This document shows positions 4,400 to 39,746 of a stretch of 64,000 bases of DNA, piece after piece. The notes under the pieces were generated by a model. That model saw nothing but the letters and a program-made list of their open reading frames with translations, ran no database searches and was not told the DNA's origin. Origin of the DNA: Larimichthys crocea (taxonomy: Eukaryota > Chordata > Actinopteri > Sciaenidae); the NCBI RefSeq assembly GCF_000972845.2, contig NW_020852345.1, positions 140,258-204,257 on the forward strand, read 5' to 3'. Position numbers and translations under genes: made by a program. Within the stretch, counting starts at the first letter, position 1. Each line of letters starts with the position of its first letter.

Positions 4400-4985
4400 C
4401 GGCTGTGGCTTGGAGGTCACCCACTAATCAGATGATCAACGGTTCGATCCCCAGCTCCTCCAGTCTGCATGTCGAAGTGTCCTTGGGCAAGATACTGAAC
4501 CCCACATTGCTCCTGAAGGCTGTGCCATCAGTGTGTGAATGTGTATGAATGGTTAGCTCCTCAAACTGATGAGCAGTCGGCACCTTGCATGGCAGCCAGT
4601 GCCATCAGTGTATGAATGTGTGTGAATTGTTATTGTACAATATGTCTCTGTTGATTTGTCCTGTACACGTGACATCCATTGCACGTCTGTCCGTCCTGGG
4701 AGAGGGATCCCTCCTCTGTGGCTCTTCCTGAGGTTTCTTCCACCTTTTTTCCCTGTTAAAGGTTTTTTGTGGGGAAGTTTTTCCTCACTCGAACCGAGGG
4801 TCTAAGGACAGAGGGTGTCACTCCCTGTACAGATTGTAAAGCCCTCCAAGGCAAATGTACTTTGTGAATTTCGGCTATACAAATAAAATTGATTTGATTT
4901 GATTTGATTTGAATGAGATATGTCCTGTAAAAGCGCTTTGAGTGGTCAGAAGACTAGAAAGGCGCTATATAAGTACAGTCCATTT
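4400..4985 (+). mobile_element. tRNA-derived SINE (family 1) split by an L2 tail
   Basis: The SINE head and body run from 4,400 to 4,627, with a clear B box (GGTTCGATCCC) but a damaged A-box region. The SINE tail resumes at 4,911 (GAATGAGATATGTCCTG) and ends near 4,985. The uninterrupted arrangement is visible in the copy at 55,164-55,353, which shows that 4,628-4,910 is an insertion. The bases GAAT occur on both sides of the insertion, as expected for a short target duplication. Confidence 0.75.
4628..4910 (+). mobile_element. L2-type LINE 3' tail inserted in a SINE
   Basis: This 283-bp segment matches the 3' end of the LINE copies at 38.7-39.9 kb and 42.3-42.6 kb, including GACATCCATTGCACGTCTGT and the terminal TTGATTTGATTTG repeats. 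It is 5'-truncated, as expected from incomplete target-primed reverse transcription. The 10-N gap and the B/C symmetry centre map to its 3' end, so the simple repeat there may have helped confuse the assembly. Confidence 0.85.
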
Positions 4986-5934
4986 ACCATTTAATAATAA
5001 CAAGTTACTGACTGAGGCGTCAACCTTCCTCTGTTTAGCACACGCCATGGCACACTCACAGTTTGACCTCTTTTCTCTTCCTCATTCCTTTATATTTTCC
5101 TCTCTGTCACTGTCACTGCCACTCTATTCAGTGAAGACCCGCCCTACCCTCCCTGTGATTGGCTGACATTCCTGCCCTCACCTTGACCAATCTCAGTCCT
5201 CATGCCTAAACCCAAGCAACTCAAACCCACAAAGGCAACGAGTACTGGCCAATCAGAGACAGGTAGGATGTCCCTTTCACTGAGTAGTGGTGTAGAAACA
5301 CTGTCAGAAAAAAAAAATGCTGTTCAAAATATAATCTCCACCAAGACTGAATAAAACTCAATGATATGTCGTTTCTGGCCCTGGGTCCAGACAGGACAAA
5401 GTGTGGGTCCGGACCTAGCCTATTTAGTGACTTGTGCTTTAAGGTCTCAGTACACTCAGTGCACTTCTACTTGTACTATTGGACACAGTCTTCCTAAAAT
5501 GCTTTGCTTTACCTCTCTAGTCTTTATACAATCTTGTACAAATCTCAACAGTTCACACAACTCTGCGTGCTTTCATATCTCAGTACACCTGTCCAGATGT
5601 TGTGTAAAGTTGCCCACATTGTAGAACATTTATACATTTTATAATATTTGCCACTTACACACATTAACAGGCAATTAACATAATTAACAAAACAAGTTCA
5701 CTTTAAGATTGGGCTACATTTTAAATACATGCACTCATAGATGAAATAACACTGTACATGGTTAGTGGACAAACCCTGTTCATATACCTACCTAAAACTT
5801 TTCATCAAATCAATAAGGACCATATTACTAACTAAGACAGTCCATAACTGATGATCACCCTTTCAAAAATTGACAATTAATCATAGATGGGTAGTGATGT
5901 GTTCCATCATGTATACATGTACATTTAATACTAA

Positions 5935-6290
5935 TTATTTTTTACATTTAAATTGACTAATTTAGCTGATGCTTTTATCCAAAGTGACAATCAAGGGAAA
6001 CAATCAAGGTACAGTGCGACTAGGACAAATAGTGCCGCAATAAGTACTGTGGGGGGGTAGATTCATTATCTCCAGTTGAGGTCCTCTCTGAAAAGCTGGG
6101 TGTTCAGGAGTTTTTTTAAGTTATGGAGGAACACTCCTGCTCTGGTAGGAACTGGTATCGTATTCCACCAACAGGGAACAACAGACAAGAAGAGTCTGGA
6201 TTGCCTTGAGCGTACAGGTGGCAGAGCCAGGCGTCGTTCATTGGAGGAATGCAAAGGTTGTGAGGTAACACAATGCTGCTGAAAAGTTTG
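5935..6290 (-). mobile_element. Degenerate LINE RT C-terminus and 3' end
   Basis: On the minus strand, 6,254-6,066 encodes a peptide with ERRLALPP, then a WNTIP-like motif, then LLNTQLF. This is the pattern seen at the C-terminus of several fish non-LTR retrotransposon RTs. The following 3' part contains the widespread motif GATGCTTTTATCCAAAGTGAC. It belongs to a different LINE family from the one at 11-15.7 kb. Clade not assigned. Damaged counterparts lie at about 27,400-27,850 and 24,340-24,800. Confidence 0.5.
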
Positions 6291-7607
6291 CGAACCCTAC
6301 AGCAATGGTCAGTTTTTTTTTTGTAAAAAAAAACTAAAATAACCTTATTAAATGGAAAGTTATACCCTATTCTGACATTCCAAATAATGGACTCAGCAAC
6401 AACAAAATGTTTGCCAGATTTCTGAGTAGGAGGGTTGTGGACCAGTTGGAGGTCGAACCAGGAAATCACTGCGATAGCATAGCATTCAAATGTGTCATAT
6501 AACAGGTATAGAGAAGAAGCACATATTGTAATATTGTGACAGTTGGAGGCAAATGTACTGGTTCCCTGTGCTTGGTGAATTTGCTCGTCTTGATCTACAT
6601 ACGTCCAGTACGGCTGAACACGATAGCTGGCGCTAAATATTGTTTCCCAAGAATGAATGGATGAATTTATAAGGAGTTTAATTCATTTTGGGTGTCATGT
6701 TTATAAACAGCAATATTTTAAGATATTTTGACAAAAAACTTCCGTCAACCTAATTGCAACATGTGCGTAATCATACAAAATATAGTCCTCATTTCATCAC
6801 ACAACTCATAGTGACGAGTCTTCAGTGTCCACAGAGGTAGCTACTCACCTGCTCTAGGTATACTACTACAGAGCAGCAAATTCAGAACAACAAACAATAT
6901 ATAAAAACAGAAAAAAATCAAGCAAGCATCAGAACAAAATGTACTGAATTGTGTTTGATCTAGTGGTCAGGTACTTTATGCATTATTCAAGCAGATGTAT
7001 CTTAAGGGTGTTATACTTCTGTATAAAAACTTGTTCACAGAAAGCCGTTCCATCTTTTAAGTATGGAAACAAAACAATCCATTTGAAACCTGCTTGCCCT
7101 GAACAGCACAAACACCTATTACATGACTAAGTTCCTTGGAGAAACCGACATCTTCAAGGTAACACGTAAAGGGCAGTTGGCATCTTTACAAACCCCTGAA
7201 TGTCACCCGTTCCAATGGATTGACAAAATAATATGCACCCATCGCTTTGTGACTGTGGATGGAAAGAGAATAGAAAAAAAACATAAAGGAAAGGATGCAG
7301 GGCGCATTTGGGCTTTTTTCCCCGTCTCTTTTTAATCAGAGGAGGAAGACTGACATGTCCAATCATAACAAAACATCAGCTGGTAAATGGGCCTTCGCAA
7401 TCACTGTCAGCCAGCCTCTATTAGAAAGACCCCCTTTCCTGGACATCAATCAATGCTTTATGGACTGATTCCTTCATTCATTATTTAATTACAGCTATTT
7501 CTTTATTTATTTAACCAATGAAGACTTTTTTGTGAGCCTTAATCACTTCTTTGTTGGCAATCACATTTTTACTTCTTGTTTATGTCAGTATTTTTCTTTC
7601 TTTTATG

Positions 7608-7633
7608 TTTTTTTTTTTTTTTTTTTTTTTTTT
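7608..7633. repeat. Poly-T run
   Basis: Twenty-six consecutive T residues. Could be a minus-strand poly-A tail, but no retrotransposed unit was recognised next to it. Confidence 0.95.
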
Positions 7634-7828
7634 GGTAATACCTTTGTTCCAGTGTTTCATCCCCGGTGAATAAAAGCTAGAAGAGAAGAGCAGCTGGTCC
7701 TAACACCACCTATAACAACTCGTAAGAGCACAAAGGAAAGTGGTCAAAGCAGAGTGCTGGACATTTGATCAACTTTGAATGCAATAAAACAGCCTCATTC
7801 TGCTCTCTAATTCCAGCCCATTCAATAA

Positions 7829-7849
7829 ACACACACACACACACACACA
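7829..7849. repeat. (CA)n microsatellite followed by A-rich DNA
   Basis: A short CA tract runs into an A-rich stretch. At the matching place in C (about 29,870-29,960) the CA tract is interrupted by long G-runs, which is one of the signs of consensus corruption there. Confidence 0.9.
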
Positions 7850-9179
7850 AAAAACAAAAAAAAAGTAGCAAAGCCCACATGCAAAATAGCCAACTGTGGA
7901 AATCTTGGATTATTTCCTGAAATTAAGCCCATTAGCCGTGAAATTATTTGCTTTCATTTAAGACGGCATGCAATCCAATTTGAGGTGGCACACACGCACT
8001 ACAACTCTTTCCAATTTCCCACTGATCCCGCGGAACCAAACATCCACAAAAGAGTCAGCTTGGGTCACCTAAGTATAGAAATAAGAGATATATCCTACTG
8101 AGAATCAGATTGGCATGGAAGATTAGCAAGGCTTTATCATGATATTCATTCAAATCCCCCCGAACATCAGCAGCAGCTCGCTTTTTCCACCCATTAACAC
8201 AAAGCAAAGTTTTACAGGAACTTAAAGAAGCCACAGAGTAGAATATTATGATCAGCTGATGGTGACATGGTAATGGATTTACTGGATATGGACTATTACA
8301 GTCATTTTCATAAATGCAGAGAGGGTTGGGTGAGTGCAGGAGCAAGTGTGTTGAAGCTGTTTGCTCTGTCACTGCCTCACTATTCTCTCTTTCAGCGTCA
8401 TTAATTATCAGGATGCTTCATGTCTGATTTGGTTACAGCTGTGACAACACAGGTCAGGAGTCATTTGAGGAGGAACTTAGGTCAGGATGAGATTTTGTAT
8501 CTTCACCTGCAGCTGCTTGGTCACACATTCCTGATGAGGATTATAACAGACTCACATAATGATAAAGTGTTCAGTTGTTATGCTCCACTTGTTAGTTTGT
8601 TGTATTTGTCTTCTTTGCAGACCCTATTTTTAGCAAAATATTGTTGAATACACTGAAAGCTTTTTGTGTATTCAGTATTCAGCCAACAACCAACAACAAT
8701 TCAATATAGTGAGCATATGACTGGACAGTGGAGATGAGGACTATGCTGCAGGACATTTTGATAGAATTTTCTTTTCACCATTGGATTACATTGTAACTGA
8801 CATGATACCAAGCTGTTATCTGTCAGTGAAGAAACTACACTATTTTTACACCCACCATTAAGACACAGGGTGATAGATTTAGATTTGGAAACGTTTGCCA
8901 TGACAACAGTCCACAGATGACAGATGAATAGTGGCACAAATTCAGAGCCAAGCCCTACCAGTAATAAACCGTTAGCACAGGTGCTCTTCTGGTAACTTCT
9001 TGCCATGGGCTGTGGTTTGTCAACACAGGATGTTTAGTTTGAACAGACATCCAATCCAACAGCAGGAAGCCACCTAGATGAGACTTCATAATCATTTTTG
9101 GCTTCACTAGAACAAAGCAATGAGTCCACTTCCCCTTTCATATACATGGACAAGCAGTGGAGACAACGGATAACCTAAA

Positions 9180-9420
9180 GTGTGTTAAAACAGCTGACAT
9201 GGAGCTCCAACACCTCACACCTGATGGAGCCCAACAAAGATTCTTCTTCCTCAAGAGGCTGAAACAGGTCCAGCTCCCACAGAAATTGTTTCTACAGGAG
9301 CATCACTGAGACTGACTGACTGACAGACAGACTGACATCTGCATGGTGTTCCAGCTGTACAGCTGCAGAGTAATTTGGATCCCACACCTGGACATTATGT
9401 CCATCTATGCCTGTTGACAC
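9180..9420 (+). mobile_element. Possible non-LTR retrotransposon fragment
   Basis: Around 9,228-9,310 a plus frame reads QQRFFFLRRLKQVQLPQ. This resembles the 'RLFFLRRL' region just past the RT domain of several fish LINEs. The related and better preserved segment is at 56,940-57,165. Stops follow quickly and no ends are visible, so this is a weak call. Confidence 0.35.
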
Positions 9421-11002
9421 AAAGACCACTTATGCAGTTAATACAAAGAGAACATATTGATTAATAACATCATTTAAAATTTAAAAAATTGTATTTGTTT
9501 TATTCTACCTACATGGAGAGAAGACATAAACGTCTACGTGACTAAATGTCATTGTACTGGATCTGTCTTTGCATGTGAGCTGTATGCTCCAAACATCCAG
9601 GTCCACATACTTACTACAAACTAAAAGTGGACACCTGAATCTGATGTAATGATCTACAGTAACACCTAGTCAGTTGTTGGAGGGAGGCCAGTAGACTTAA
9701 AGGTAATGACAAGGTAGAAGTCCAAAGGAATACAAACAGACAGATCGCCACCTATCCACTTGCACTCCACTTCATTAGTGAGATTGCTCCTGTTTGCGGG
9801 AGTTGAACAAGCTGCGTCTGCTGTTAAGTAAATGAGTAGTGTGCTGTGCTTCTGCTTCTCTTCATAGAAACAGAAACTCACCTCCCTGTTAAGTCTGAGC
9901 AGTGTATGAAGGCCACATCAATTAAAATGAATTAAGTTAAAAACATGATAAAAATATAATGTTTAATACAATAACACCCTGAGACTATGTAACTCTTGAT
10001 ATAAACAATAAGTGGAAATTTGTTGTAACTTAATCGCTTGTATTGCTGAGTTGAATTCATAAATAAAATCAATCAAATCAATCAATCATTTTTATTTTCA
10101 CTCCAGTTGGGTGCAGCGGAACAGCCTGTAAGAATAACAAGAACAACAATATTTATCAAATTATAAACCAAAGCAACATGAATGTAAATCCAATATTCAT
10201 GCTGTCTGCTGAGCAAATGGGTTGATCACTGATGGGTTTTTCACAGAAAACAGCTGCCTGCTGGAATCAAGGTTAAACAAGAGTTTGTGGGCCAAAACAA
10301 AACAATGAGCTAAAAGAGGATCTAAGGTTTACAGTTGAGGGGAACTACATAGCTGGATCATAATTCTCTGCACGTTCATCTGTTTTGAGCTGGAATTCCC
10401 TAAAATTGGATATTCATGGTATTCAGAGGATGGACCCTCATGTGACTTCTTGACTATCTGTGCCCTGCACCCTTCATGCCAGAAAGTTCAAGCCATGTAT
10501 TATGTGCTATGCTTCAAGGCACTCCAACCACTGTAGTGGATACGGAGAGTGTTACTTCCACTTTCTCTACCTATATTTTCTCACCTGGATTTGTGGAGCA
10601 TGGAGGAACATGCAACCTTAACATACAAAGCAATGGGAATTGAACACACAACCCTCTTACTGAAAACTGAGATATTGTACATCCATCATCTTGTTAGCCC
10701 TGCCTTGTTGTGATTTGTAAAATTCCTAAAATCACAAAGAGAAAAAAAAAACATGTTGCAATAATGAGGTCATGAGTCCAAGCCCCTGGACCGGACTGTT
10801 CAATTATCGGTCGTACTATTGGTTGGGCTATTGACACATTTTGATCTGATACTCTGAAGTGAACCTGCTCCAACAGACAATGCAGCACAGACCAAACATG
10901 TTCATACAGAGTGTGTGTGCATCTAGATGCACGTAGGAGCTAGTAAAAGATCCTCTGTCTCCTCTCTTGTTTTATTCAGGGAGTGCCTACACACACAGAG
11001 CG
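9421..11002. other. Non-coding stretch, nothing recognised
   Basis: Includes a short ATCAATCAATCA-type repeat near 10,060-10,090. No protein or RNA gene recognised. The counterparts are about 18.2-19.9 kb (inverted) and 32.4-34.1 kb. Confidence 0.45.
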
Positions 11003-11092
11003 CATCTTGACGACCTCTTTGCGGTAACGTATTGTGTCACTTCCGGTTATCGGTGTTGCTGCCACGGTGCTCTCTGCTCTGTTCACCTAAAC

Positions 11093-11259
11093 CAGACATG
11101 GGCAAACTACGGCCCGCGGGCCGCATGCGGCCCGTTAGGCTTTTCAATGCGGCCCGCCGAACTTATCCACATCCAAAAAATAGGAGGTCCTGGCCCAGCC
11201 CCTCTGTCAAATTTTAGAACCCAATGTGTCCCACAAGTCAAAAAGTTTGCCCACCCCTG
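11093..11259. mobile_element. 167-bp hAT-type MITE in the LINE 5' UTR (copy A)
   Basis: The ends are inverted repeats. The left begins CAGACATGGGCAAACT and the right ends AGTTTGCCCACCCCTG. The element is flanked by 8-bp near-duplicates, ACCTAAAC (11,085-11,092) and ACCGAAAC (11,260-11,267). The LINE copy on the minus strand near 45,270 lacks the element and has only one such octamer, a natural empty site. An 8-bp duplication with CAG...CTG ends fits the hAT superfamily. No coding capacity. Confidence 0.85.
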
Positions 11260-11427
11260 ACCGAAACAGATTTTGGTATATTTCTCACATCAGCGATTAT
11301 CTACTTATCTCTGCACTATCCTTTGACTTGTTCTGTCTGTGCACGAACAGGTCTCTCAACTCTAGTAACCACAATCTGATAGTTTCACCAGTTTATGTTA
11401 GCCACACTAACTAACCTAGCGATAGCA

Positions 11428-12327
11428 ATGGCTTCTCTCTGCTCTCCTCCTCTCTCCTCTCCTGCTCTCTCCTGCCCTGTGTGCCACATGTTCAGTTACT
11501 CCTCGTCCTCCTTTAGTGATAACGGTACTTGTGATAAATGTAGTTTATTTGTAGCTCTGGGGGCAAGGGTCAGTGAGCTAGAGGCACGCTACCGCACCAC
11601 CGAACAGTCAGTAGCTCAGATAGTTAGCCAGTCCCCTGTAGCCGGTGCAGTACCGCCGCAGGTAGCTTCAGCTAGCCGTCCCCCGGTAGTTCCCGAGCAG
11701 CCGGGAGGCTGGGTGACTGTCCGAAGGAGGCATAGCCCCAAACTGAAACCCACGGTACACCACCAACCGCTCCACGTTTCTAACAGATTTTCCCTGCTCA
11801 GCGACACACCTGCTGAGAGGCCAACTCTGGTCATTGGCAGCTCCATAGTCAGAAACGTGAAGTTAGCGACACCGGGGGCCATAGTTAAATGCATCCCGGG
11901 GGCCAGAGCGGGCGACATCGAATCTTTTTTTAAACTGCTGGCTAAAGATAAAAGTAAATATAGTAAAATTGTTATTCACGTCGGCGGTAATGACACCCGG
12001 TTACGCCAATCGGAGGTCACTTAAATTAATGTTTCATCGGTGTGTGCATACACCAAAACGATGTCGGACTCCGTAGTTTTCTCTGGTCCCCTCCCCAATG
12101 TGACCAGTGATGACATGTGTAGCCGCATGTTGTCATTCCAACGCTGGCTGTCGAGGTGGTGTCCAGCGAACGATGTGGGTTTCATAGACAATTGGACACC
12201 TTTCTGGGGAAAACCTGGTCTGATTAGGAGAGACGGCATCCATCCCACTTTGGATGGAGCAGCTCTCATATCTAGAAATATGGCCAAGTTTATTAGTCGA
12301 CCAAAAACCGTGACAACCCAGAGTTGA
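11428..12327 (+). pseudogene. LINE ORF1 protein with SGNH esterase domain, one nonsense codon
   Basis: In CR1/L2 LINEs ORF1 is a nucleic-acid-associated protein, and some carry an esterase of the SGNH hydrolase fold whose role in transposition is unclear. Seen here: two Cys pairs (CPVC, CDKC) near the N-terminus, a heptad-like stretch [15 protein letters not shown], then esterase block I (VIGSSIVRN, with the nucleophile Ser), block III (HVGGNDTR) and block V ([11 protein letters not shown], with Asp and His). I chose the Met at 11,428 because it begins the conserved MASLCS; an in-frame Met also lies at 11,395. A TAA at 12,022-12,024 interrupts the frame. The minus-strand copy has AAA (Lys) at that position, so a single base change explains the stop. 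Length about 300 codons. Confidence 0.8.
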
Positions 12328-12509
12328 GACCAAGAAGCAGAGCTGCAGTCTTACACGCTTCTCTGCGCCTCCATTAGAGCAGCTGCCCACCCAGTCTTTT
12401 AGTATAGAGACTGTGTCTGTCCCCCGTCCACCTACGTTATTTAAAGATAAAACAAACAGAAGAGGAGTTCATCATAAAAACTTAAGTCAACATCAACAGT
12501 CCAAAATAA

Positions 12510-13135
12510 GAGCATTAAATGTGGACTCCTGAATATCAGGTCTTTGCCATCTAAAGCTGTCTTAATCAATGAATTAATATCTGATTATGATATTAATTTG
12601 TTCTGTCTCACTGAAACTGATGAATATGTTGGCCTAAATGAATCCACTCCTCCGAGCTGGTGGAGTTGGAGCCATATTTGACTCAAGTCTATTAAAAAAT
12701 CCTAAACCTAAACTAAATTATAATTCATTTCAAAGTCTTGTTCTCAGCCTCACTCACCCAACCTGGAAAACATCGCAGCCAATTTTATTTGTTACAGTAC
12801 ATCGAGCTCCAGGTCCTTATTCTGAATTTTTATCTGAATTTGCAGAATTTGCATCAGGCTTGAGCCTTAAAACAGATAAAGTAATTGATGTGATTTTAAC
12901 ATTCGTGTGGACAACCACAATGATATTCTTAGTACTGTGTTTATCTCTCTATTACACTCAGTTGGCTTCTGTCAGAGTGTAAATAAACCGACTCATTGTC
13001 TGAACCACACTCTTGATCTTTTTTTCTCATATGGCATTGAAATTGATAATCTATTTGTCTTTCCACAGAATCCTCTTCTGTCTGACCATTTTTTAATAAC
13101 CTTTGAGTTCATATTACTGGACTATAAGCCTTTGT
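12510..13135 (+). pseudogene. LINE ORF2 endonuclease domain, frameshifted
   Basis: This is the APE-type endonuclease that nicks target DNA for target-primed reverse transcription. Its motifs are spread over three frames: NIRSLPSK and CLTETD (the conserved acidic residue) at 12,520-12,620, then VHRAPGPYSEFLSEF near 12,795-12,840, then FNIRVDNHND near 12,895-12,925, then HTLDLFF near 13,000 and SDHFLIT near 13,080. The order and spacing match the family. At least two frameshifts separate them. Copies B and C show the same domain with different breaks. Confidence 0.75.
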
Positions 13136-13559
13136 GCCGAAACTCCTACAGCAGATGTTTATCTGATAGTGCTGTAGCCAAATTTAAAGAAGTGATTCCT
13201 TCAGCATTGAATTCAATGCCATGTCTCAATGCAGCAGAGGACTTGTCTGCTTCCTTTAGCCCCTCACAAATAAATCATCTTGTTGATAGTACCACAGGCT
13301 CAACGGACAACTCTAGACTCTATTGCACCTCTGAAAAAGAAGACAATTAAACAAAGGAGGAAGAGACGCGTAAATCTGAATGCAAATGGCGTGCCACTAA
13401 ACTGGAAAAATCTCGTCTAGTCTGGCAAGATAATCTCAAAACATACAGGAAGGCTCTCTGTAATGCCAGAGCAGCCTACTACTCTTCATTAATAGAGGAG
13501 AATAAGAACAACCCCAGATTTCTCTTCAGCACTGTAGCCAGGCTAACAGAGAATCACAG

Positions 13560-15290
13560 CTCTACTGAACCATCTATTCCTTTAGGTCTAAGTAGCAATG
13601 ACTTCATGAGCTTCTTTAATGATAAAATTATAACTATTAAAGACAAAATCCATCACCTCTTGCCCTCAACAGGCATTGATTTGGATTCTGATACAGCAAG
13701 TTTGGAAACAGCTGTAAAACCTGATATGTATTTAGACTCTTTTTCTCCCATCGACCTTCATCAAATAACTTTAATAATTTCTGCAGCTAAGCTGTCAACC
13801 TGTCTCTTAGACCCCATCCCAACCAGGCTGCTCAAGGATTTTTTCCCCTAGTTAGTCATTCTTTATTAGATATGATTAATCTGTCTTTATTATCAGGATA
13901 TGTACCACAGTCCTTTAAGGTAGCTGTAATTAAACTTCTTCTTAAAAAGCCCACGCTAGATCCAGAGGTCTTAGCCAACTACAGACCGATATCACACCTT
14001 CCCTTTCTGTCTAAGATACTTGAGAAAGCTGTAGCTAATCAGCTGTGTGACTTTCTCCATAACAATAGTCTATTTGAGGATTTTCAGTCAGGATTTAGAG
14101 TGCATCATAGCACAGAGACCGCATTAGTCAAAGTTACAAATGACCTCCTAATGGCATCAGACAAAGGACTCATCTCTGTACTCGTCCTGTTAGATCTTAG
14201 TGCTGCATTTGACACTACTTGTCCTGTTAGATCTTAGTGCCGCATTTGACACCATTGACCATCAAATTCTTTTACAGAGACTGGAACATCAAATTGGCAT
14301 CAAAGGAACCGCCCTAAGCTGATTTAAGTCATATTTCTTAGATCGATCTCATTTGTTCACGTCAATGATGAATCCTCCGTGCATTCAAAGTTTGTCATGG
14401 AGTCCCACAAGGTTCTGTATGTGGACCACTTGTTTAGTTAATTTTCAAAAAAAGTTTCATTGTGTATGCTGACGACACTCAATATATTTATCGATCAAGT
14501 GATAAAACCTATCAATTAATTAAAACTCCAAGCATGCCTTAATGATATAAAGTTGGATGACCTCACAATTTTCTGATGTTAAATTCAGACAAAACTGAAG
14601 TTCTTGTAATTGGACCGAAACACCTCATAAACTCTCTTTCTAGAGACTTAGTTACTTTAAATGGGATCACCCTGGCCTCCAGCTCCACTGTAAGAATCTT
14701 GGAGTTGTTTTTGATCAGGATTTGTCTTAACGTCCACATAAAACAAATTTCGAGGACGATTCTTCCACTTACGTAACATTCTAAAATCAGACGCATTGTC
14801 TCTCACAGCGGATGCAGGAAAACTAGTCGCATTTGTTACTTCAAGGCTGGACTATTGTAATTCTTTGTTATCAGGGCTCCAATAAGTCTCTTAGGACTTT
14901 GCAGTTATTCAGAATGCTGCTGCGCGTGTTCTGACAGGAACCAAGATCAGAGATCACATCTCTCCCATTTTAGCTTCCTTGCATTGGCTGCCTATTAAAT
15001 CTAGAATAGAATTTAAAATTCTTCTCTTACTTACAAAGCTTTCTGTCAGGACCATCATATCTAAAAGAGCTCATAGTACCTTACCACCCTCTAACACTGC
15101 ACTCTCAGGATGCTAAGTTCCTTGTGGTTCCTATATATTTCCAAAAGTAGATTGGGAGCCAGAGCTTTCAGCTATCGGCTCCTTTCTGTGGAACAAACTA
15201 CCTTTCTCGGTTCGGGAGGCAGACATGGTCAACACTTTTAGAATAGACTTAAGACTTTCCTTTTTGATAAAACCCTAGTTAGGGCTGGCT
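13560..15290 (+). pseudogene. LINE ORF2 reverse transcriptase domain, multiply broken
   Basis: This would be the RNA-dependent DNA polymerase of the element. Recognisable pieces in order: [13 protein letters not shown] near 13,800, [19 protein letters not shown] at 13,970-14,030, [15 protein letters not shown] near 14,085-14,130, [12 protein letters not shown] near 14,180-14,220, YADDT near 14,470 (in a different frame), LMLNSDKTEVLVIGPK near 14,575 and the thumb-like LDYCNSL region near 14,850. A stop separates the first two pieces. A 37-bp tandem duplication at 14,179-14,252 shifts the frame right after the first catalytic Asp motif. No intact polymerase can be made from this copy. Confidence 0.8.
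14179..14252 (+). repeat. 37-bp tandem duplication inside the LINE RT
   Basis: Two 37-base units differ at two positions (CTCG/CTTG and GCTGC/GCCGC). Copy C (37,296) and the minus-strand LINE (about 43,700) have one unit. 37 is not a multiple of three, so the duplication breaks the frame. The slight difference between units suggests two overlapping sequences joined end to end rather than polymerase slippage. Confidence 0.9.
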
Positions 15291-15715
15291 CAGGTCATCC
15301 CTTAGTTATGCGCCATAGGATTAGCCGCCGGGAGACTCTCCTTCCCTTCTCTCTCTCACTCTTTCTCTCCCTCTCTCTCTCCCCCTCTCCCTCTCTCTCC
15401 TTCTATCATCTGTTGACAGAAACATGTCTCATGATGCATGTTAAACTAAACTTCCCGGAGTTTCGCTCTGTCGCCAGCAGCTCGTGGACGTGGCTGCGTG
15501 TGACCGCATGACGTCCCACACATTTATTACTGTCATTTTGCTGCCATATCTGATACGTGGTCATTTCACATTGAATTCATTGCATTTTTTTTCATTCATT
15601 GTGATTCATGTCATTTTGTCAGTCTGACATCCATTGCACGTCTGTCCGTCCTGGGAGAGGGATCCCTCCTCTGTGGCTCTTCCTGAGGTTTCTTTCACCT
15701 TTTTTCCCTGTTAAA

Positions 15716-26099: not shown

Positions 26100-29000
26100 A
26101 TTTGAATGAGAATAATTGTCCTGTCAAAGGCGCTTTGAGTGGTCAGCAGAACCTAGCATGAACGCTATAAGTACTGTCACTTCCCTTTAACCATTTAACT
26201 CATAAACACTTGGTTAGGGCTGCTGATGCGTCCAACCCTTCTCTGTTTAGCACACGCCATGGGGCCACTCAACAGTTTGACCTCTTTTTCTCTTCCTCAT
26301 ATCCCTTATATTGTCCACGTCTCTGTCACTGTCACGCCACTCTAGTTTTCAGTGGGAGAGACCGCGCCGGCCCTAACCGGCTACCCTGTGATGGTGGGCG
26401 TGACATTCCTTACTCAGGCCTTTACCAATACTCAGTCCTCATGGCCTAAACCCAAGCAACTCAAACCCACAAATGCAGCGAGTATGAGCCAATCAAGACA
26501 GGGTAAAAACGTGATGTCCCTTTCACTGAGTAGTGGTGGTAGAAACAGGGACGGTCAGAAAAAAAAATGCTGGTTCAAAAATATAATCTCCACCAAGACG
26601 AATAACTCAATGATAGGATCTGTCGGTGTTCTGGACCTGGTCCAGACAGGACAAAGTGTGGGTCCCTCGGAACTAGCCTATTTAGGGACTTGTGCTTTAA
26701 GGTCTCCAAGTACACTGGCAGTGCAACTCTACTTGTACTTATTGGACACAGGCTTCCTAAAAGCGTGCTGTTAGGGCCGTCTCTAGGTCTTTAATATAAA
26801 GACAATCATTGTACAAATCTCAACAGTTCACACAACTCTGCGTGCTTTCATTCTCCAGTACACCTGTCCGAGATGTTTGTGTAAGTTGCCCCACTTGGAT
26901 AGAAACATATTTATAAACATTTTATCATCTGTGAAGAGCCACGTTCCACACATAGCAAGGCAATTTCACATAATCCAAAACGGAAGTAGGGGTCCCTTTA
27001 CGAGTTGGGCTTAACATTTTAAATACCATGCACTGCATCAAGCGTGAAAGAACCACATGTATCATGAGATTCCGATGGAAACGAAAACCCTGGGTTCATA
27101 TACCACGCGGAAACTGGGTTTTCATACAAATCCCTACGGACCCAAAACCCAAAAATAAAATCAAAAGAGTAAAACAGCTGAAGGGAAAAACAACAGAGGG
27201 AGGAAGATAACCAGAGAAAAAAGGGGGTGGGAGAAAAAAAAACAATGATATCACAACCTTATCACAAAGTGAAGCAATGGGGTACGCATGAGGATGGGTA
27301 GGGTGAATAGAAAGGGGGGGGGGGGGGGGTGTGGGGTCCATCCGTATACATGGGTACCTGTATACTGGGGGGAGGAGTTCTATTGTTTTACCATTAAATT
27401 AAATTGACTAATGTAGTTAAAGGCTGATGCTTTTATCCAAAGGGGTGACACGTGCAAAAGGGAAAACAATAGCGAAGGGGTCACAAAACATGCGACTGAG
27501 AGCACAAATCGTGGCAACGTACATAAGGGGATACGTGGGGGTGGGGGGGTAGGCTTCATTATCTCCAGTTTCCAGGGTCGCCTCACGGTGCAAGCTGGGT
27601 GGGGTTCAGGCGTTTTTTGTTAGGGCGTTCTGGAGGCACCCTCCTGCTCTGGTTGCAGGACCCTGGATACGTCGTCGTCCACACACAGGTCCCAACGCCC
27701 CGAAGCGTGCTGTATTTGGGACCTTGAGCGTAGCAGGTTGAGGAGCCAGGGGCGTCGTTCATGATGGGTGAGGAATGCAAAAACAGGGTTGTGACGGTAA
27801 AAACACAAATGCTTAGGCGGTGAAAGAAAATTTGCGAACCCGACAGCAATGGTCAGGTTTTTTGTTTGTAAAAAAAAACTAAATAACCTTATTAATGAAA
27901 GGAATTATACCGCTGAGGTATCTGAACATTCACCAAATAATAGGAGCGTGGCAGGGAACAGACAAAGATTTTGCCAGATTTCTGAGTAGGGGGGTGTGGG
28001 ACCAGGGTAAGGAAGGTCGAAAAAACCAGGAAATACACATAGGGGGCGTGCGATAGCAGAGCAAAATTCAAATGTGTCTATAACCGGTATAAGAAGAAGA
28101 AGCCATAGATTTGTAATAATTGTGGCAGTTGGAGGCAAATTAGTGGTTCCTCCACGGTGGCTTTGGAATTTGGCCGTCGGGAGTCTTGAATCTACATAAC
28201 GTCCCAGTACGGCGAACGGACGATAGGGCGTTGGCCGCTAAATAGTGTTTCCGCAAGAATGAATGGATGAATTTTATAAGATTTTAAGAAATTCATGGTT
28301 TGGGTAGGTCAGGTTTTTAATAAACAGCAGTGATATGTTAAGATATTTTGACAAAAAACTAAGTGGGTCCAAGTCAAACGGCGTAATTAACAACAGGGAA
28401 GAGAAGGAGATGTGGTAATCAGACAAACAATAGTAAGGTGGCCAATGGGACAAATTTCATCACACAACTCATATGACGAGTCCCTTTCAGTGTCGCCACA
28501 GAGGGTAGCTACCACCTGCTCTAGGTATACTACTACAAAGAGCAAAGTCAAGAACAACAACAAGGGATATAAAAACAGAAAAAAATCAGCAAGCATGCAG
28601 CACAAAATGTACTGAATTGTGTTTGAGTCTAGTGGGACAGGTACAATTTAATGCATTAGAAATATCAAAAAAGGCAATGAAAATCTTAAGGTGTTATACT
28701 ATCTGGATAAAAAACTTGATTTTCAGGGCGAAGCCGTGACCAGTCGTTTTTAAGTATGGAAACAAAACAAATGCCATTTTAAACGCTGCTGGCCTGAACA
28801 GCAACAGGGAACACCGTGATTAGCATGACTAGAGTGCGGGCTTTGAGGAAACCTGACAATCTTCAAGGTAACACGTAAAGGGCAGTTGGCATCTTATACA
28901 AACACGCCTGAATGTCACGCACGTTTCCAATAGAGATTGACAAAGGATAATATGCACACCAGGGGGGGGAAAAAAAGGGGGGGGGCAGGGGGGAGGGAGT

Positions 29001-32000
29001 AACACAGCCATAGCAAGCTTTGGTACTGAGTGGGAAAATGGAAAAGAGAAGAGAAAAAAAACATAAATGAGAAGGATGGGGCGAAGGTCAGCAGTTTGGA
29101 AAATCTTTTTTCCCGGGCGTCTCTGAAAATCTTGTGGGTAAAGATCAGAGGAGAGAGAGGGACTGACATGTGCCAAAGTATCATAACAAAACAGCATCGG
29201 GTAAATGGGCACTGTCGCACTCACTGGATCGGGGGCGGAGCACAATCTATGAGAAAGACCCCCGTCCTTGAACAGGGGGAAATCAAATCCAATGCTTGGT
29301 ATAGATGTGAACTGATTCGGCTATCATGGGGGGAAAGATCATGGGGGTAAGTTAATTACAGCTATTATTTCTTTATGTTATTTGATAACGGCAATGGAAG
29401 ACATTTTTTGTAGAAGCCTTAATCCTGGGGGGTCTGGGGGGGGTGCTGTTGTGTGGTTAGGCAATAAGCGGGGGGGGGGAGGATCACATTTTTCTGTCGT
29501 GTATATGGGGTCAGTATTGGTTGGGGTCTTAAGATCTTTATGTTTTTTAGTTTGTTTTGAATATTTTGGGTTGTTATTTTTGTTTTATTGGTAATACCAA
29601 GAATTTGGTTCCAGGGGGGTGGAATTTCCAAAAAGAAACTCCCCGGTGGGAATCCCAAAGAACAGAGACGAAGACAGCTGGTCCCTAAAGACAACCCACA
29701 GATAACAACTCGTAAGAGCAGCACAGGTAAAGTGTGGGGGGTCAAGGATGCAGAGGGTGGGGCTGGAGCGATTTGATACAACTTTGGAATGCAATAAAAC
29801 GAGGGGGCGCGGGTCATTCTGCTGCGGGCAGGGGAAAAAAGAGGGTAATTTCCAGCCATTATCAAATAACACACACGGGGGAACACACACAAAAAGGGGG
29901 GGGGGGGGGGGGGGGAGGAAAAGAAAGGAGGAAGCACAAAAAAAAAAACAAAAAAAAAGTAGCAAACAGGCCACGAGGCACATAGGGGGGCGAAAATGAG
30001 CAACAACTTTGGGAAAAAAAAATCGGGGAATGGATGATGTATGGGTAAAGGTCCTGAAATTAAAGCCCATTAGCCGTGAAATTATTTGCTTTATTTAAGA
30101 CGGCCTGCAATCGGCAATATTGAGGTGGCAGCACGACGGGGGGGGGGGGAAAGGGAAAAAAAAGAAAAGAAAGGGCAGGGGGGGGGCGGGTACAACGCGT
30201 GTGAATACGCAGTTTCCCGGCCCGCCACTGGATCCGGGGGCAAAAAAAAAGGGGAGGGGGGAGGGGGGGGGGGGGGGGAGCGGAACCAGGAAACAGTAAA
30301 CCAAAAAAACAAAAAAAAGAGGGCGATCTTGGGTAGAATACACACGAGAATAAGTGAATAGAAATAAGCAGATATAAAAATAAACCGAAAAAAACGAAAA
30401 AAAGATCAGGGATTGGGGGCATGGAAGATGAGCAAAGGCTTTATCATGATATTCATGATCAAATCCCCCCCGAAAGGGGAAAAAAGACAGTACGGAGCGG
30501 AGTGGGGGGGCAAAAAGCGTAAGAGCTCAAAGCATCAGCAATTTTGGGAAAAAAAGGGAAGAGGGGAAAAAGAAAAAAAAAAGGGGGGGGGGAAGGAGGA
30601 AAAAAGGAAAGAAAGGGGGGAAGGGGAAGAAAAAAAGAGAAAAGGAATCGAAACACCATTGTCAACGGGAGCAAATCAAAGTTTTAAACCTGACTTAAAG
30701 AAGAACCAGCATAGAGTATAATATTGATTAATCAGAAAAAGCGTTGGGATGGTAGGACATGGTGAAGATGGGGAAAAGGATTTGACTGGATATGGGGGGG
30801 GAGGCTGAGTGAAGGATGTACAAAAGAAATTCAAATTGTTCATAGAATGGCATGCTATGGGGGAGAGGGGAAGAAAAAGGGGAAAAAGTTTGTGTTGAGG
30901 GGGAGATTCAGTATATCAAGTAATGAATTTTTATTAACGATCCTTTTTGGCGTCCTGGGAATCCTTCCAGATCGACTATTCTCGGAAGGGAAGAAAAAAG
31001 GGGGAAGAAGGGAGGAAAAAAAAAAGGGGGGGGAAAGAAAAAAGGGGAAAAAGAGGGGGGGAGGGGGTCAATTATCAAAAAAAATCTCAAGAGGGTGGGG
31101 GAGAGAGGGAAAAAAGGAGGATGTGGGGTCTTGAAATCAAAAGCTTCATTCTTATCAGAGATGACTTCAATAAAAAGGTTACTTAAAAATTTTTGTTACA
31201 GCTGGTGACCAAACATCAACAGGTGCGAAGAAAAGAGGAAAAAGACAGTCAAAAATTTTTGAATTGTAGGAACTTAGGTCAGTATGAAAGATTATTTTAT
31301 CTATCACCATTACAGGCTGTAAACTTGGGGGTGGGTCACGAGGGCATTCGCTGATGAGGGATTGGGAGTAGAAAACAGAGCACATCACATGGAATGAATA
31401 AAAAGTGTTCAGGACTTGTTATTCTCCACAAAGGGGGGTATGGTTAGAGGTTTGGTAGTAACATTTGTCTTTGGGTCTTAATGTGCGACTGAAACCGGGG
31501 ATTGGTAAAAATGATGGGTCATCACACGGGAGTAGATTGGTTTTAATCCAGACTAGCAGGGGAAAGGGCTGGGTTATGGAAATGGTTAGGTGGTCTTCCG
31601 TCCCCATGGGAGCGGGCCGGGGCCGACGAGCACACACCCAATTCCCTCTCAGATGCCCGACGAAATGCCTGAGCCCCAGTGCGATGCGGACCTCTGCCCT
31701 GCCGGCCCTTTGCTCGCCTTTTACACATATTTCCCCCTTTGGCATCCAGTGTCACTTGACCTGCACCCCCAGGCTGTTATCTGTCCGTGCAGCACCTACC
31801 CTCTTTTTTCGTCACCCCACGGACCACAACACCCCTAATCCCAGCCCCCCAGGGATGATCGCTTTCGCTTTGCCCCGTTTGTGCCCTTGACGCCCCAAGA
31901 TCCCCGGAGCTGACATGAATACGTGGCCCCACTTCGGAGCCCACAGCCCGACCCTTAATAACCGTTAGCACAGGATGTCTTGCGGGTACGTCTTGGGGCC

Positions 32001-34223
32001 AGGGAGGGCTGTGGTTGTCAAGCACCGGATGTTTAGTGGAACCGAACATCCAATCCAACAGCGAAGCCCCTAGATGAGAAAATGTCATAATCATTGTTGG
32101 CTTCACGAGAACAAAGATGAGTCACTCCCCTTCATATACTATGTACAAGGCAGTTGGAGACAACGGGATAACCTAAAAGTGTTTGTATAAAACAGCTGGA
32201 CATGAGCTTCCAACGACCTCACAACAGAAAAGAAAGGCCTGATGAGCCCAACAAAGATTCTTCTTCCGTCAGAGGCTAAACAAGGGTCCGCTCCCAAGAA
32301 AATTGTTTTCTAACAGGAGCATCACAGGAGACTGACTGACTGATCCAGCGAATGACATCTGCTGTGTTAAATCCAGCTGTAGCAGCAGCAGTAGTAATTT
32401 GGGATCCCACACCTGGACATTATGTCCATAGCGTATGCCTGTTTACAAAAGACCACTGTATGCAGTTAATACAAAGAAGAACATAATTATAAGTAACATC
32501 ATGTTAAAATTTTAAAAAATTGTAAATTGTTTTAATTCTAACCAATACACTGAAGAAAGACATAACGTCTACGTGCTAATTTCATTGTACTTGGATCTGC
32601 CTTTGGCATGTGGGCGTATGCGCTCATCAGGTCCACATACGTCTAAACAACTAAAAAGTGACCACCTGAATCTGATGGTAGGGATCTACAGTACACACTA
32701 GGCAGTTGTGGATGGGAGTGAGGCCGTAGAACTTGAAAGGTAAATACCAGGTAGAAAAGTCCCCAAGGAATACACACGGACGAGCAGCCACCAGAAATCC
32801 ACAAAAGCCACTGATCACCTGCCTACTTCAGTAGTGGGAGATTTTCTCCTGTTGCGAGAGTTTTGAACAGCTGCGATCTGCTGTAAGTTAGGACCTGCAG
32901 GTGTGGTGCTGTGCTTCTGCTTCTCTCATAGCCAACCGAACACTCGAAACCTCTGTTAAGTACTGAGCATGTTCGGAGCAGGCCACAATGCAATTAAGAA
33001 TGAATTAGTTTAAGAAACAGGATAAAAGTAATGTTTAATACAGCATAGGAGGGCAAAACCCACTGAGAACTAAAATGTAACATCTGATACGAAACAATAG
33101 GAGTGGAAAATTTTTTGTAACTTAATCGCATTGGGTACTGCTGAAGTGAATATCGAAGAATATAAAATCAATCAAATCATCAATCATTTTTATGGCACAA
33201 GTCCGTTAGGGATGCAAAGGCAGAAGATGGAAAACAGCCTGGGTAGCGAACACAAGAACAACATATTTATCAATTATAAACCAAAGCAACATGGAATGTA
33301 AATCCAATATTCATGCTGCTGCTGAGCAATGGGTTGATCACTGATGGGTTTTTTCACACAGAACACAGCTGCCTGCTGGAATCAAGGTTAAACAAGAGTT
33401 TGTGGGCCAAACAAAACAATGAGCTAAAAGAGGATCATAGGTTTACAGTTGAGGGGAACTACAGAGCTGGATCAAGAATTCTCTGCACGTCATGCATCTG
33501 TTTTGAGGCTGGAATTCCCTAAAATTGGATATTCATGGTATTCAAGGATGGGACCTCATGTGACTTCTTGACTCTCTGTGCTGCACCCTCATGCCAAAAG
33601 TTCAAAGCCATGTTATTATGTGCTATGGCTTCAAGGCACTCCAACCACTGTAGTGGATACGGAAGTGTTACTTCCATTTCTCTACCTATATTTTCTCACC
33701 TGGATTTTGTGGAGCATGGGAGGAAATGCAACCTGAACATACAAAGCAATGGGAATTGAATACACAACCCTCTTACTGAAAACTGAGATATTGTACATCC
33801 ATCAATCTGTTAGCCCTGCCTTGTTGTGATTTGTGAAAATTCCTAAAATCACAAAGAGAAAAAAAAAACATGTTGCAATAATGAGGGGTCTAGATCCAAG
33901 CCCCTGGACCGGACTGTTCATGATCGGTCGTACTATTGGTTGGACTTATGTGACAACATTTTGATCTGTACTCTGAATTGAACCTGCTCCAACACAAGAA
34001 AAGCGCAGCAAGACCAAACATGTTTCATACAAGTGTGTGTGTCTAGATGCACGTAGGAGCTAGTACAAGATCCTCTGTCTCCTCTCTTGTTTTAGATAGG
34101 AGTGCCGTACACACACGAGCGCAATCTTGACGACCTCTTTTGCGGTAACGTAGGTTGTGGTCACTGGGTCGGTTATCGGTTGCTACGTGCTGCCACGGTG
34201 CTTCGTGCTCTGTTCACCTAAAC

Positions 34224-34387
34224 CAGACATGGCAAAACTACGGCCCGCGGCCGCATGCGGCCCGTTAGGCTTTCAATGCGGCCCGCCGAACTTATCCACA
34301 TCCAAAAAATAGGAGGCCTGGCCCAGCCCCTGTCAATTTTAGAACCAACAAGTGGTTCCCACAAGTCAAAAGGTTTGCCCACCCCTG
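34224..34387. mobile_element. hAT-type MITE, copy C
   Basis: Same element and same insertion site as 11,093-11,259, with CAGACATGG at the left and CCCACCCCTG at the right. It differs from copy A by small indels. Confidence 0.8.
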
Positions 34388-34572
34388 ACGGAAACAGATT
34401 TTGGTATATTTCTCACATCAGCGATTATCTACTTTACTCTGGCACTATCCTTTGACTTGTTTGTTCTGTCTGTGCACGAACAGGTCTCTCAACTCTATAG
34501 ACACACCAACAATCTGATGGTTTCATCATCAGACCTTTATGTTAGCCACACATAAACTAACCTAGCGATAGC

Positions 34573-35474
34573 AATGGCTCTCTCTGCTCTCCTCCTCTCG
34601 TCTCATCCTCGCCCCTTCCGCTCCTGCCCTGTGTGCCACATGTTCAGTTACTCTCGTCCTCCTTTAGTGATAACGGTACTTGTGATAACATGGTAGTTAT
34701 TTGTAGCTCTGGGGGCAAGGGTCAGTGAGCTAGAGGCCACGCTACGCCCACCGCGCGAACAGTCAGTAGCTCAGATAGTTAGCCAGTCCCTGTAGCCGGT
34801 GCGTACACGCCGCCGCAGGTAGCTTCATAGCCGTAGCCCCGCGGTAGTATTCCGCGAGGCATCCGGAGGCTGGGTGACTGTCCGAAGGGCATAGCCCCAA
34901 ACTGAAACCCACGGTACACACACCAACCGCTCCACTTTCTAAACAGATTTTCCCTGCCAGCGACACACCTGCTGAGAGGCCAACTCTGGTCCATTGGCAG
35001 CTCCATAGTCAGAAACGTGAAGTTGCGACACACGGGGGCCATAGTTAAAATGCATCCCGGGGGGCCAGAGCGGGCGACATCGAATCTTTTTTTAAACTGC
35101 TGGCTAAAGAAATAAAAAGTAAATATAGTAAGATATGTTATCACGTCGGCGGTATGACACCCGGTTACGCCAATCGGAGGTCACTATAAATTAATGTTTT
35201 CATCGGTGTGTGCATACACCAAAACGATGTCGGACTCCGTAGTTTTCTCTGGTCCCCCCCCCCAATGTGACAGTGATGACATTGTAGCCGCATGTTGTCA
35301 TTCCACGCTGGCTGTCGAGGTGGTGTCCAGCGAACGAGTGGGTTTCATAGACAATTGGACACTTTCTGGGGAAAACCTGGTCTGATTAGGAGAGACGGCA
35401 TCCATCCCACTTTGGATGGAGCAGCTCTCATATCTAGAAATATGGCCAAGTTATTAGTCGACCAAAAACCGTGA
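34573..35474 (+). pseudogene. LINE ORF1 (SGNH esterase type), copy C, frameshifted
   Basis: The ATG at 34,573 corresponds to the chosen start in copy A. The esterase block V motif [11 protein letters not shown] is readable near 35,390-35,425, followed by LISRNMAK. Block I and the coiled-coil-like region are present only in pieces, because single-base insertions and deletions occur every few tens of bases. The break pattern differs from copies A and B, so the breaks are probably sequence errors more than shared ancient mutations. Confidence 0.7.
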
Positions 35475-36019
35475 GACACCCAGGTTGAGACCAAGAAGCA
35501 GAGCTGCAGTCTTACACCGCTCCTGCGCCTCCATTAGAGCAGCTGCCCACCCGTCTTTTAGTATAGAGACTGTGTCTGTCCCGTCCCCGTCCACTACGTT
35601 ATTTAAAGATAAACAAACAGAAGAGGAGTTCATCATAAAAACTTAAGTCAACATCAACAGTCCAAATAAGAGCATTAAATGTGGACTCCTGAATATCAGG
35701 TCTTTGCCATCTAAAGCTGTCTTATCAATGAATTAATATCTGATTATGATATTAATTTGTTCGTCTCACTGAAACTGATGAATATGTTGGCCTAAATGAA
35801 TCCACTCCTCGAGCTGGGGAGTTGGAGCCATATTTGACTCAAGTCTATTAAAAATCCTAAACCTAAACTAATTATATTCATTTCAAAGTCTTGTTCCAGC
35901 CTCACTCACCCAACCTGGAAAACATCGCAGCCAATTTTATTTGTTACAGTACATCGAGCTCCAGGTCCTTATTCCTGAATTTTTATCTGAATTTGCAGAA
36001 TTTGCACAGGCTTGAGCCT

Positions 36020-38370
36020 TAAAACAGATAAAGTAATTGATGTGATTTTAACATTCGTGTGGACAACCACAATGATATTCTTAGTACTGTGTTTATCTCT
36101 CTATACACTCAGTTGGCTTCTGTCAGAGTGTAAATAAACCGACTCATTGTCTGAACCACACTCTTGATCTTTTTTTCTCATATGGCATTGAATTGATAAT
36201 CTATTTTCTTTCCACAGAATCCTCTTCTGTCTGACCATTTTTTAATAACCTTTGAGTTCATATTACTGGACTATAAGCCTTTGTGCCGAAACTCCTACAG
36301 CAGATGTTTATCGATAGTGCTGTAGCCAAATTTAAAGAAGTGATTCCTTCAGCATTGAATTCAATGCCATGTCTCAATGCAGCAGAGGACTTGTCTGCTT
36401 CCTTTAGCCCCTCACAAATAAATCATCTTGTGATAGTACCACAGGCTCAACGGACAACCTAGACTCCTATTGCACCGCTGAAAAAGAAAGACAATTAAAC
36501 AAAGGAGGAAGAGACGCGTAAATCTGAATGCAAATGGCGTGCCACTAAACTGGAAAAATCTCGTCTAGTCTGGCAAGATAATCTCACAACATACAGGAAG
36601 CTCTCTGTAATGCCAGAGCAGCCTACTACTCTTCATTAATAGAGGAGAATAAGAAACACCCCAGATTCTCTTCAGCATGTAGCCAGGCTAACAGAAGATC
36701 ACAGCTCTACTGAACCATCTCCTAGGTCAGTAACAATGACTCATGAGCCTTTAGATAAAAAATAACATTAAAGACAAAACATCATCACCTCTTGCCCTCA
36801 CAGGCATTGATTTGGATTCTGATACAGCAAGTTTGGAAACAGCTGTAAAACCTGATATGTATTTAGACTCTTTTCTCCCATCGACCTCATCAAATAACTA
36901 ATAATTCTGCAGCTAAGCTGTCAAACTGTCTCTTAGACCCCATCCCAACCAGGTGCTCAAGGATTTTTTCCCCTAGTTAGTCATTCTTTATTAGATATGA
37001 TTATCTGTCTTTATTATCAGGATATGTACCACAGTCCTTTAAGGTAGCTGTAATTAAACTTCTTCTTAAAAAGCCCACGCTAGATCCAGAGGTCTTAGCC
37101 AACTACAGACCGATTCACACCTTCCCTTTCTGTCTAAGATACTTGAGAAAGCTGTAGCTAATCAGCTGTGTGACTTTCTCCATAACAATAGTCTATTTGA
37201 GGATTTTCAGTCAGGATTTAGATGCATCATAGCACAGAGACCGCATTAGTCAAAGTAAATGACCTCTAATGGCATCAGACAAAGGACTCATCTCTGTACT
37301 TGTCCTGTTAGATCTTAGTGCCGCCTTTGACCACATTGACCATCAAATTCTTTTACAGAGACTGAACATCAATTGGCATCAAAGGAACCGCCCTAAGCTG
37401 ATTTAAGTCCTATTTCTTAGATCGATCTCAGTTTGTTCACGTCATGATGAATCCTCCGTGATACCAAAGTTTGTCATGGGTCCCACAGGTTCTGTATGTG
37501 GACCACTTCTGTTTAGTTAATTTTCAAAAAAAGTTTCATTGTTTTGCTGACGACACTCAATTATATTTATCGATCAAGCCTGATAAAACCTATCAATTAA
37601 TTAAACTCCAAGCATGCCTTAATGATATAAAAAGTTGGATGACCTACAATTTTCTGATGTTAAATTCAGACAAAACTGAAGTTCTTGTAATTGGACCGAA
37701 ACACCTCATAAACTCTCTTTCTAGAGACTTAGTTACTTTAATGGGATCACCCTGGCCTCCAGCTCCCACTGTAAGAATCTTGGAGTTGTTTTTGATCAGG
37801 ATTTGTCCTTTAACGTCCACATAAACAAATTTCGAGGACTGCATTCTTCCCCTTACGTAACATTGCTAAAATCAGACGCATTGTCTCTCAAGCGGATGCA
37901 GAAAAACTAGTCGCATTTGTTACTTCAAGGCTGGACTATTGTAATTCTTTGTTATCAGGCTGCTCCAATAAGTCTCTTAGGACTTTGCAGTTAATTCAGA
38001 ATGCTGCTGCGCGTGTTCTGACAGGAACCAAGATCAGAGATCACATCTCTCCCATTTTACTTCCTTGCATTGGCTGCCTATTAAATCTAGATAGAATTTA
38101 AAATTCTTCTCCTTACTTACAAAGCTCTTCATGGTCAGGCACCATCATATCTAAAAGAGCTCATAGTACCTTACCACCCCTCTAGAACACTGCACTCTCA
38201 GGATGCTAAGTTCCTTGTGGTTCCTATAGTTTCCAAAAGTAGATTGGGAGCCAGAGCTTTCAGCTATCAGGCTCCTCTTCTGTGGAACAAACTACCTTTC
38301 TCGGTTCGGGAGGCAGACATGGTCAACACTTTTAAGAATAGACTTAAGACTTTCCTTTTTGATAAAGCCT
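36020..38370 (+). pseudogene. LINE ORF2 (endonuclease C-terminus plus RT), copy C
   Basis: After the endonuclease motifs near 36,060-36,240, the RT follows with SKILEK near 37,130, DLSAA near 37,310 and FADDTQLYLSIKP near 37,545, continuous with MLNSDKTEVLVIGPK to about 37,710. The catalytic Asp pair is intact in this copy. The rest is split over several frames. The 37-bp duplication of copy A is absent. Confidence 0.7.
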
Positions 38371-38878
38371 ATAGTTAGGGCTGGCTCAGGTCATCCCTTA
38401 GTTATGCTGCATGGATTAGACCGCCGGGAGACTCTCTTCCCTTCTCCTCTCACTCTTTCTCTCCCTCTCTCTCTCCCCCCTCTCCCTCTCTCTCCTTCTT
38501 ATCATCTGTTGACATACATTCTCATTGATGCATGTTACTAACTAAACTTTCCCGGAGTTTCTGTGCTCTGTCGTCCAGCAGGTTCTCGTGGATCGTGGCT
38601 GCTGCTGTGATCCTGCATGACGTCCACTACACATTTATTACTGTCATTATTGCTGCCATATCTGATACTGTGGTCATTTTATCATTCATTGTAATTCATT
38701 GTCATTTTATCATTCATTGTGATTCATTGTCATTTTGTCAGTCATTGTAATTGTACAATATGTTTGTGTTGATTTGTCCTGTACACGTGACATCCATTGC
38801 ACGTCTGTCCGTCCTGGAGAGGGGATCCCTCCTCTGTGGCTCTTCCTGAGGTTTCTTTCACCTTTTTTCCCTGTTAAA

Positions 38879-39746
38879 TAGGGATGTAACGATACATCGT
38901 GACACGATTAAAATCGGTACAAATGCGTGACGACTCGCATCGGTTGACAGAAAAAATGAATCGCGATTCTTGGCGAATGCGAGAGAAGTAGGATATGTTC
39001 TTTTTCGTCTTTTTAAAAATTAGAAATAGGTTACGTTGTGGCTGCAGCTTCCACTGCCGTGTCTGCCTTTCTGTGTCACACACACACACACACACACAAC
39101 ACACCCACACCACACCACCACACACACACACACACACATGCGCAGTACTGGTAATCGGCGTCAGGCCTGACTGTACCGTAAATGATACCATAACACAGAC
39201 CCTCCAGGAATTCACGATGTTGCGATTTGCAACTTCAACGCAACTTCAGTGAATCCCCGTAAATTCAGGGCGGTGTTGCAATTTTAACCAATCACCGCAA
39301 CTTCCGCGCAGACTGCAAGGGGGATTAAACTCGGGTCAGGGACGGCCGCACGGTGCGGGAGGATCCCCTCATGGGACCTCTCCCCGGCGCTGGCTGGCCC
39401 CCGCCGGGCGCATTTCCTCCGAGGTGGTGCGCCGCGACCGGCTCTGCGTTTACACGGACCTCGCCGTTTCCCGGGGCCGTGGACTCTCATTAAAGGGTTA
39501 ATGAGCTATCATCTTAATTGTTTTTATTTTCTGTTAGCTCATACTTCAAACTGAAAGGTAATGGTCAGATCAGCTGCTTGCTGGCAGCCCTAATAAGAAC
39601 ACAAACTGCTTGAGAGTTTCTGTAAAGAGAGATTTTTTTCATACAAATCAAAAGATAATTTTATTTGGTCAGAATTTGTCTGTAGCTCATTTTGATTGAA
39701 AAAATCGTATCGTGAATCGTGAGTTGAGTATATCGTTACATCCCTA
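38879..39746. mobile_element. 868-bp hAT-like non-autonomous element with 8-bp target duplication
   Basis: The left end is TAGGGATGTAACGATA and the right end, read inverted, is also TAGGGATGTAACGATA: a 16-bp perfect terminal inverted repeat. The octamer CTGTTAAA is present at 38,871-38,878 and again at 39,747-39,754, an exact target duplication. The element sits in the LINE 3' tail, which is otherwise continuous. Inside are an imperfect (CA)n tract (about 39,077-39,138) and a GC-rich block (about 39,300-39,480). No transposase domain is recognisable, so it would depend on a hAT transposase supplied from elsewhere. Confidence 0.9.

Follow-up and report, generated by a model that had tools for sequence, protein, structure and literature searches.

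A plus/minus/plus arrangement in a Larimichthys crocea scaffold, with identical error-rich sequence on both sides of an N run, is very probably an assembly artefact

INTRODUCTION

Missed SMRTbell adapters yield palindromic reads, and artificial inverted duplications have been reported in an assembly built from chimeric or missed-adapter reads, both in passages of the report on Pacasus (PMC6218980). Inverted structures can also be genuine: passages of two further reports describe an interstitial inverted triplication that has a plus/minus/plus order with both flanks (PMC4689423; PMC4352052). A third described system concerns the content of such a stretch, the structure of the ORF1 esterase of the zebrafish element ZfL2-1 having been set out in part of PMC3905857.

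The window analysed here, the whole stretch of 64,000 nucleotides at positions 140,258 to 204,257 of contig NW_020852345.1 (Larimichthys crocea, assembly GCF_000972845.2), holds a locus that can be set beside each of these. It resembles the artificial palindromes of the Pacasus report, as far as the passages of PMC6218980 describe them, in appearing to be an inverted duplication made by sequencing or assembly, and it differs from them in that its mirrored arms share every difference from the clean copy, an N run lies at their centre and the other turn has a loop of 2.5 kb. It resembles the triplications attributed to ODIRA, in the account given in passages of PMC4689423, in its plus/minus/plus order and in the keeping of its flanks, but here the stretches tested at the first turn hold no inverted repeat of at least 10 bases and the copies differ by read noise.

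RESULTS AND DISCUSSION

Architecture of the arrangement

Comparison of the window with itself by BLAST bears out the plus/minus/plus order of one segment that an earlier note had read from these letters, with copy A at 4907-15851 (plus), copy B at 15853-26089 (minus) and copy C at 26100-39014 (plus). The stretch 15853-36494 matches its own reverse complement, 31915-39014 matches 8924-15851 on the same strand and 15853-20274 matches 13346-8924 inverted; weaker pieces (75-79%) extend the match to 4907 and to 26089/26100. The segment has two parts, here called X, of which A holds the clean version (4907-13346, plus), and L (13347-15851 in A, plus), which is found in A and C and is missing from B. 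Copies A and C each consist of X and L, and copy B, which mirrors A at 4907-13346 only, is the reverse complement of X alone. The inner part of B (15853-20267, minus) is a moderately noisy reverse complement of A from 13346 down to about 8930, and its outer part (20268-26089, minus) carries noise like that of a raw read. The 10-N join at 26090-26099 is the single N run of the window. The outer part of C (26100-31921, plus) has the same raw-read-like noise, the inner part of its X (31922-36494, plus) is noisy with quality that is better toward the right, and its L (36495-39014, plus) continues into the right flank.

The turn from A to B lies in the T-run after 15851, where the earlier note had put it (about 15,852), and leaves 2.5 kb unmirrored. 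The last 193 bases of A and C, ending at 15851 and 39014, are identical; past this shared end A passes through the T-run into B and C passes into the right flank. As had also been claimed, C is longer than A through scattered insertions (12915 against 10945 bases), and this excess consists of inserted-base noise rather than inserted elements.

An exact mirror of error-rich sequence at the N run

The two arms that flank the N run, 20268-26089 and 26100-31921, are exact reverse complements with 0 differences over 5822 bp, which upholds the perfect symmetry that had been noticed at the gap, and the first differences between B and C appear only more than 5822 bp from the N run. Aligned with 4018 bases of A, the mirrored arm gives 3730 matches, 210 substitutions, 78 deleted bases and 1882 inserted bases, so that one noisy sequence with 2170 bases off A is present twice. 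Of the inserted bases 1601 (85%) are A or G on the strand of C, and the printed alignment reads as the sequence of A with runs of G and A inserted. The weak match between A at 4907-8906 and C exceeds chance throughout: cut into blocks of 400 bases, it scores 13.8 to 32.6 sd above shuffled sequence in all 10 (30 shuffles per block), and the mirrored stretch is therefore the same locus as A and not some other low-complexity element; the idea that its purine- or pyrimidine-rich stretches are a genuine element of that kind was rejected, as they align to ordinary sequence of A with A/G runs added. Between 20 and 33 kb, the 13 one-kb bins have on average 76 bases per kb in G or C runs of at least 4; the other 51 bins of the window have a mean of 13.5 and a maximum of 36 per kb. 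Of the 13 bins, 5 lie inside the range of the other 51, which counts against an artefact.

Some two thousand noise differences held in common are not expected of two genomic copies or of two passes of one molecule. Given that all the differences of the arms from A are common to both, copying by software is indicated rather than a second pass, and one noisy read tail would have been placed twice by software. It is highly likely that the same raw read tail stands on both sides of the 10-N join in opposite directions.

The earlier note had offered two origins for such a structure. The first, a missed adapter, would in its full form be one missed-adapter or fold-back long read inserted whole, running backwards through X, round a hairpin and then forwards through X and L. 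The palindromic reads described in passages of PMC6218980 lend this reading some plausibility, and the turn from B to C is indeed mirrored right up to the turn, with nothing between the arms but the 10 N. However, it is very improbable for several reasons: two passes would have independent errors, whereas these arms share all of theirs over 5822 bp; 10 N would not occur in a read; B and C differ beyond the arm and are partly corrected there; and the turn from A to B is not mirrored up to the turn. The errors common to both arms and the loop left unmirrored thus led to the rejection of a pure missed-adapter read as the sole cause; a missed adapter may still have contributed to the turn from A to B. 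The second origin, a contig joined to its own reverse complement, comes nearer for the turn from B to C, and is put more exactly as one uncorrected read tail that appears twice, in opposing orientations, to the left and right of the N run.

Noise within and beyond the mirror

Beyond the identical arms, noise drops with distance from the N run. Farther from it, B comes closer to A, from 92% identity to 99% apart from the block 9707-10106, where identity falls to 84%, and C likewise goes from 75-83% to 98-99%. In these parts, more than 5822 bases out, B and C no longer coincide and each gives a better, partly corrected version of that part of A, and a gain in quality of this kind has the appearance of contig ends with thinning read depth. 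Within the identical arm, noise does not drop with distance: its lowest level, at about 80% identity, is beside the N run and its highest some 4-5 kb off, a trend that is not accounted for by read depth simply tapering off and that counts against the artefact model.

The kind of noise also varies along the mirrored arm. At 31600-31921 and in its mirror it shifts from inserted A/G runs to changes toward C, and in the zone 31600-32099, which reaches slightly beyond the arm, C is the resulting base in 46 of the 66 substitutions.

The copies differ mainly by indels

Six comparisons between the copies hold 124 substitutions and 567 indel events. Six control pairs, which are dispersed repeats from the same window chosen among, and not making up all of, the pairs found by self-BLAST, hold 98 and 13; the differences of the copies are in this sense dominated by indels beyond those of real repeats of the same window. 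Fisher's test on these counts gives 2e-48, a value that is descriptive only because parts of A enter more than one copy comparison and two of the comparisons have 168 bases in common. Five pairs were left out of the controls. One, 45906-46459 with 45294-45865 (12 substitutions, 16 gap starts), would oppose the contrast; the others are 4753-4906 with 39747-39885 (12 substitutions, 2 indel events), 4626-4760 with C (4 and 2), 4670-4760 with A (1 and 0) and 42486-42635 with C (3 and 2).

Between 12000 and 13346 of A, the comparison with B has 0 substitutions and 23 indel events in 1357 columns, and that with C has only 3 substitutions. A LINE copy in the right flank, at 44352-45269, serves as an outside standard: its substitutions to A, B and C are 37, 39 and 37, and its indel events 5, 41 and 59, which places A nearest. 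In the LINE esterase frame, A and the flank copy have a complete GGND motif, from which the same single base is missing in both B and C. Taken together, the indel counts against the flank LINE and the lost base in GGND indicate that A has the better sequence in X. For A, B and C the longest stop-free stretch across the LINE part of X (11265-13346 in A) is 213, 112 and 75 codons, respectively. The shared lost base would be consistent with B and C having drawn on the same reads, which they probably did in part.

What decides the matter is the kind of difference, which in B and C takes the form of indels and read noise. The earlier note had argued that the copies of a real triplication would have to decay equally; this is a weak argument, unsafe in general, and it is not needed here.

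Part L and the possibility of a second haplotype

In part L the comparison of A with C gives 15 substitutions in 2617 columns, and a unit of 37 bp is present as two tandem copies in A (14179-14252) and as one copy in C (at 37297). The two units in A differ from each other at two bases. The tandem duplication may represent two alleles written one after the other or a local error, and allelic variation may be mixed into the differences between the two versions of L. Which version is better depends on the standard used: against a second flank LINE (LINE2) that of C is cleaner, with 11 indel events against 25 for A, against a third (LINE3) the two are equal (21 for A and 22 for C), and by the longest stop-free stretch that of A is better (166 against 120 codons).

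These differences raise the possibility that A and C are two alleles, C being an unpurged second haplotype left in the scaffold and B a chimera that bridges them. As a complete account this is very improbable, given that 26100-31921 is read noise, that A and C differ by so few substitutions between 12000 and 13346, and that the inverted copy is left unaccounted for. A second haplotype could instead be an added ingredient of the assembly artefact rather than a full rival to it.

The rival reading of a genuine inverted triplication

A genuine interstitial inverted triplication, of the ODIRA or DUP-TRP/INV-DUP type, shares the order and the retained flanks described in passages of PMC4689423 and PMC4352052, and was nonetheless rejected as extremely improbable, given the spectrum of the noise and its exact mirroring: its copies would be genomic and differ, if at all, by mutation, whereas the differences here resemble sequencing noise, and that noise is mirrored exactly about an N run at the centre of the arrangement. 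Nor was a turn at short interrupted inverted repeats found at the first turn, the second being masked by N: 13300-13400 and 15800-15852 have no inverted match of 10 or 12 bases, and their inverted matches of 8 bases are just two, overlapping and A-rich. Equally far-fetched is a real inverted triplication whose inner copies appear only as poor reads, accurate reads failing to resolve them.

A model for the probable artefact

The plus/minus/plus arrangement is thus almost certainly an assembly artefact of one kind or another and not biology, a judgement made from the letters of the window themselves. What is observed directly is the architecture, a mirror that repeats error-rich sequence without a difference, copies set apart mainly by indels, noise that drops away beyond the mirror, and a single-base error common to B and C. 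The following sequence of events is suggested. The true locus would be a single X followed by L, with the left flank ending at 4906 and the right flank starting at 39015. One contig would enter from the left as X and L and then falsely turn into the reverse complement of X, giving copy B; a second would enter from the right as L and X, giving copy C, and overlap the first. Both would thin from consensus to one uncorrected, insertion-rich read tail of 5822 bases, presumably from a continuous long read of PacBio type, and the two contig ends, carrying one raw read in opposite directions, would have been juxtaposed with 10 N, perhaps by a scaffolder or gap filler. The turn from A to B would have come from a chimeric read or a mis-join. 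The false turn itself, and the start of B at 13346 of A, lie outside what this model explains.

The claim that an assembly artefact has added about 23 kb is strongly supported, 15852-39014 amounting to 23163 bases, and this part of the scaffold is unfit for gene annotation, repeat counts or claims of copy number. Exact mirrored arms at a short N run, indel-dominated differences relative to a clean copy and homopolymer inserts made of the bases of one strand offer, in combination, a check for such artefacts that requires no reference.

LINE content and other features of the window

Copy A carries a ZfL2-like LINE at 11265-15715 (plus), of which the right flank has a rearranged copy in inverted orientation at 42341-45269; within the latter, 44352-45269 is matched at 94% by 11265-12167 of A. 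The likeness to a ZfL2-type element with an ORF1 esterase comes through the flank ORF at 44339-45136 (minus), which matches residues 148-261 of PDB entry 4c1b (E 1.4e-16), an entry that we take to be the structure of the ZfL2-1 ORF1 esterase of zebrafish. Here the element is an ordinary dispersed repeat within X and L. Pieces like the 3' end of the LINE recur at 2298-2426, 4626-4906 and 39747-39885, and copy A begins directly after one such piece, at an ATTTG-type tail.

Searches of the remaining content returned no Rfam family in the window at gathering score, no tRNA in the window by ARAGORN (run with the bacterial code), no Pfam match at E 0.01 for any of 7 LINE or flank ORFs, and no PDB match at E 0.1 for the flank ORF at 43815-44381 (plus). 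Microsatellites of CA type are present in the window and, taken with the esterase match of the LINE, point to a fish as the source of the DNA. A smaller inverted repeat occupies 45294-46459, with arms at 45294-45865 and 45906-46459 and a spacer of 40 bases; outside AT/AC microsatellites, in which many of the gaps between them fall, the arms are near-identical. This may be a genuine fold-back element, or else a further local error of the fold-back kind.
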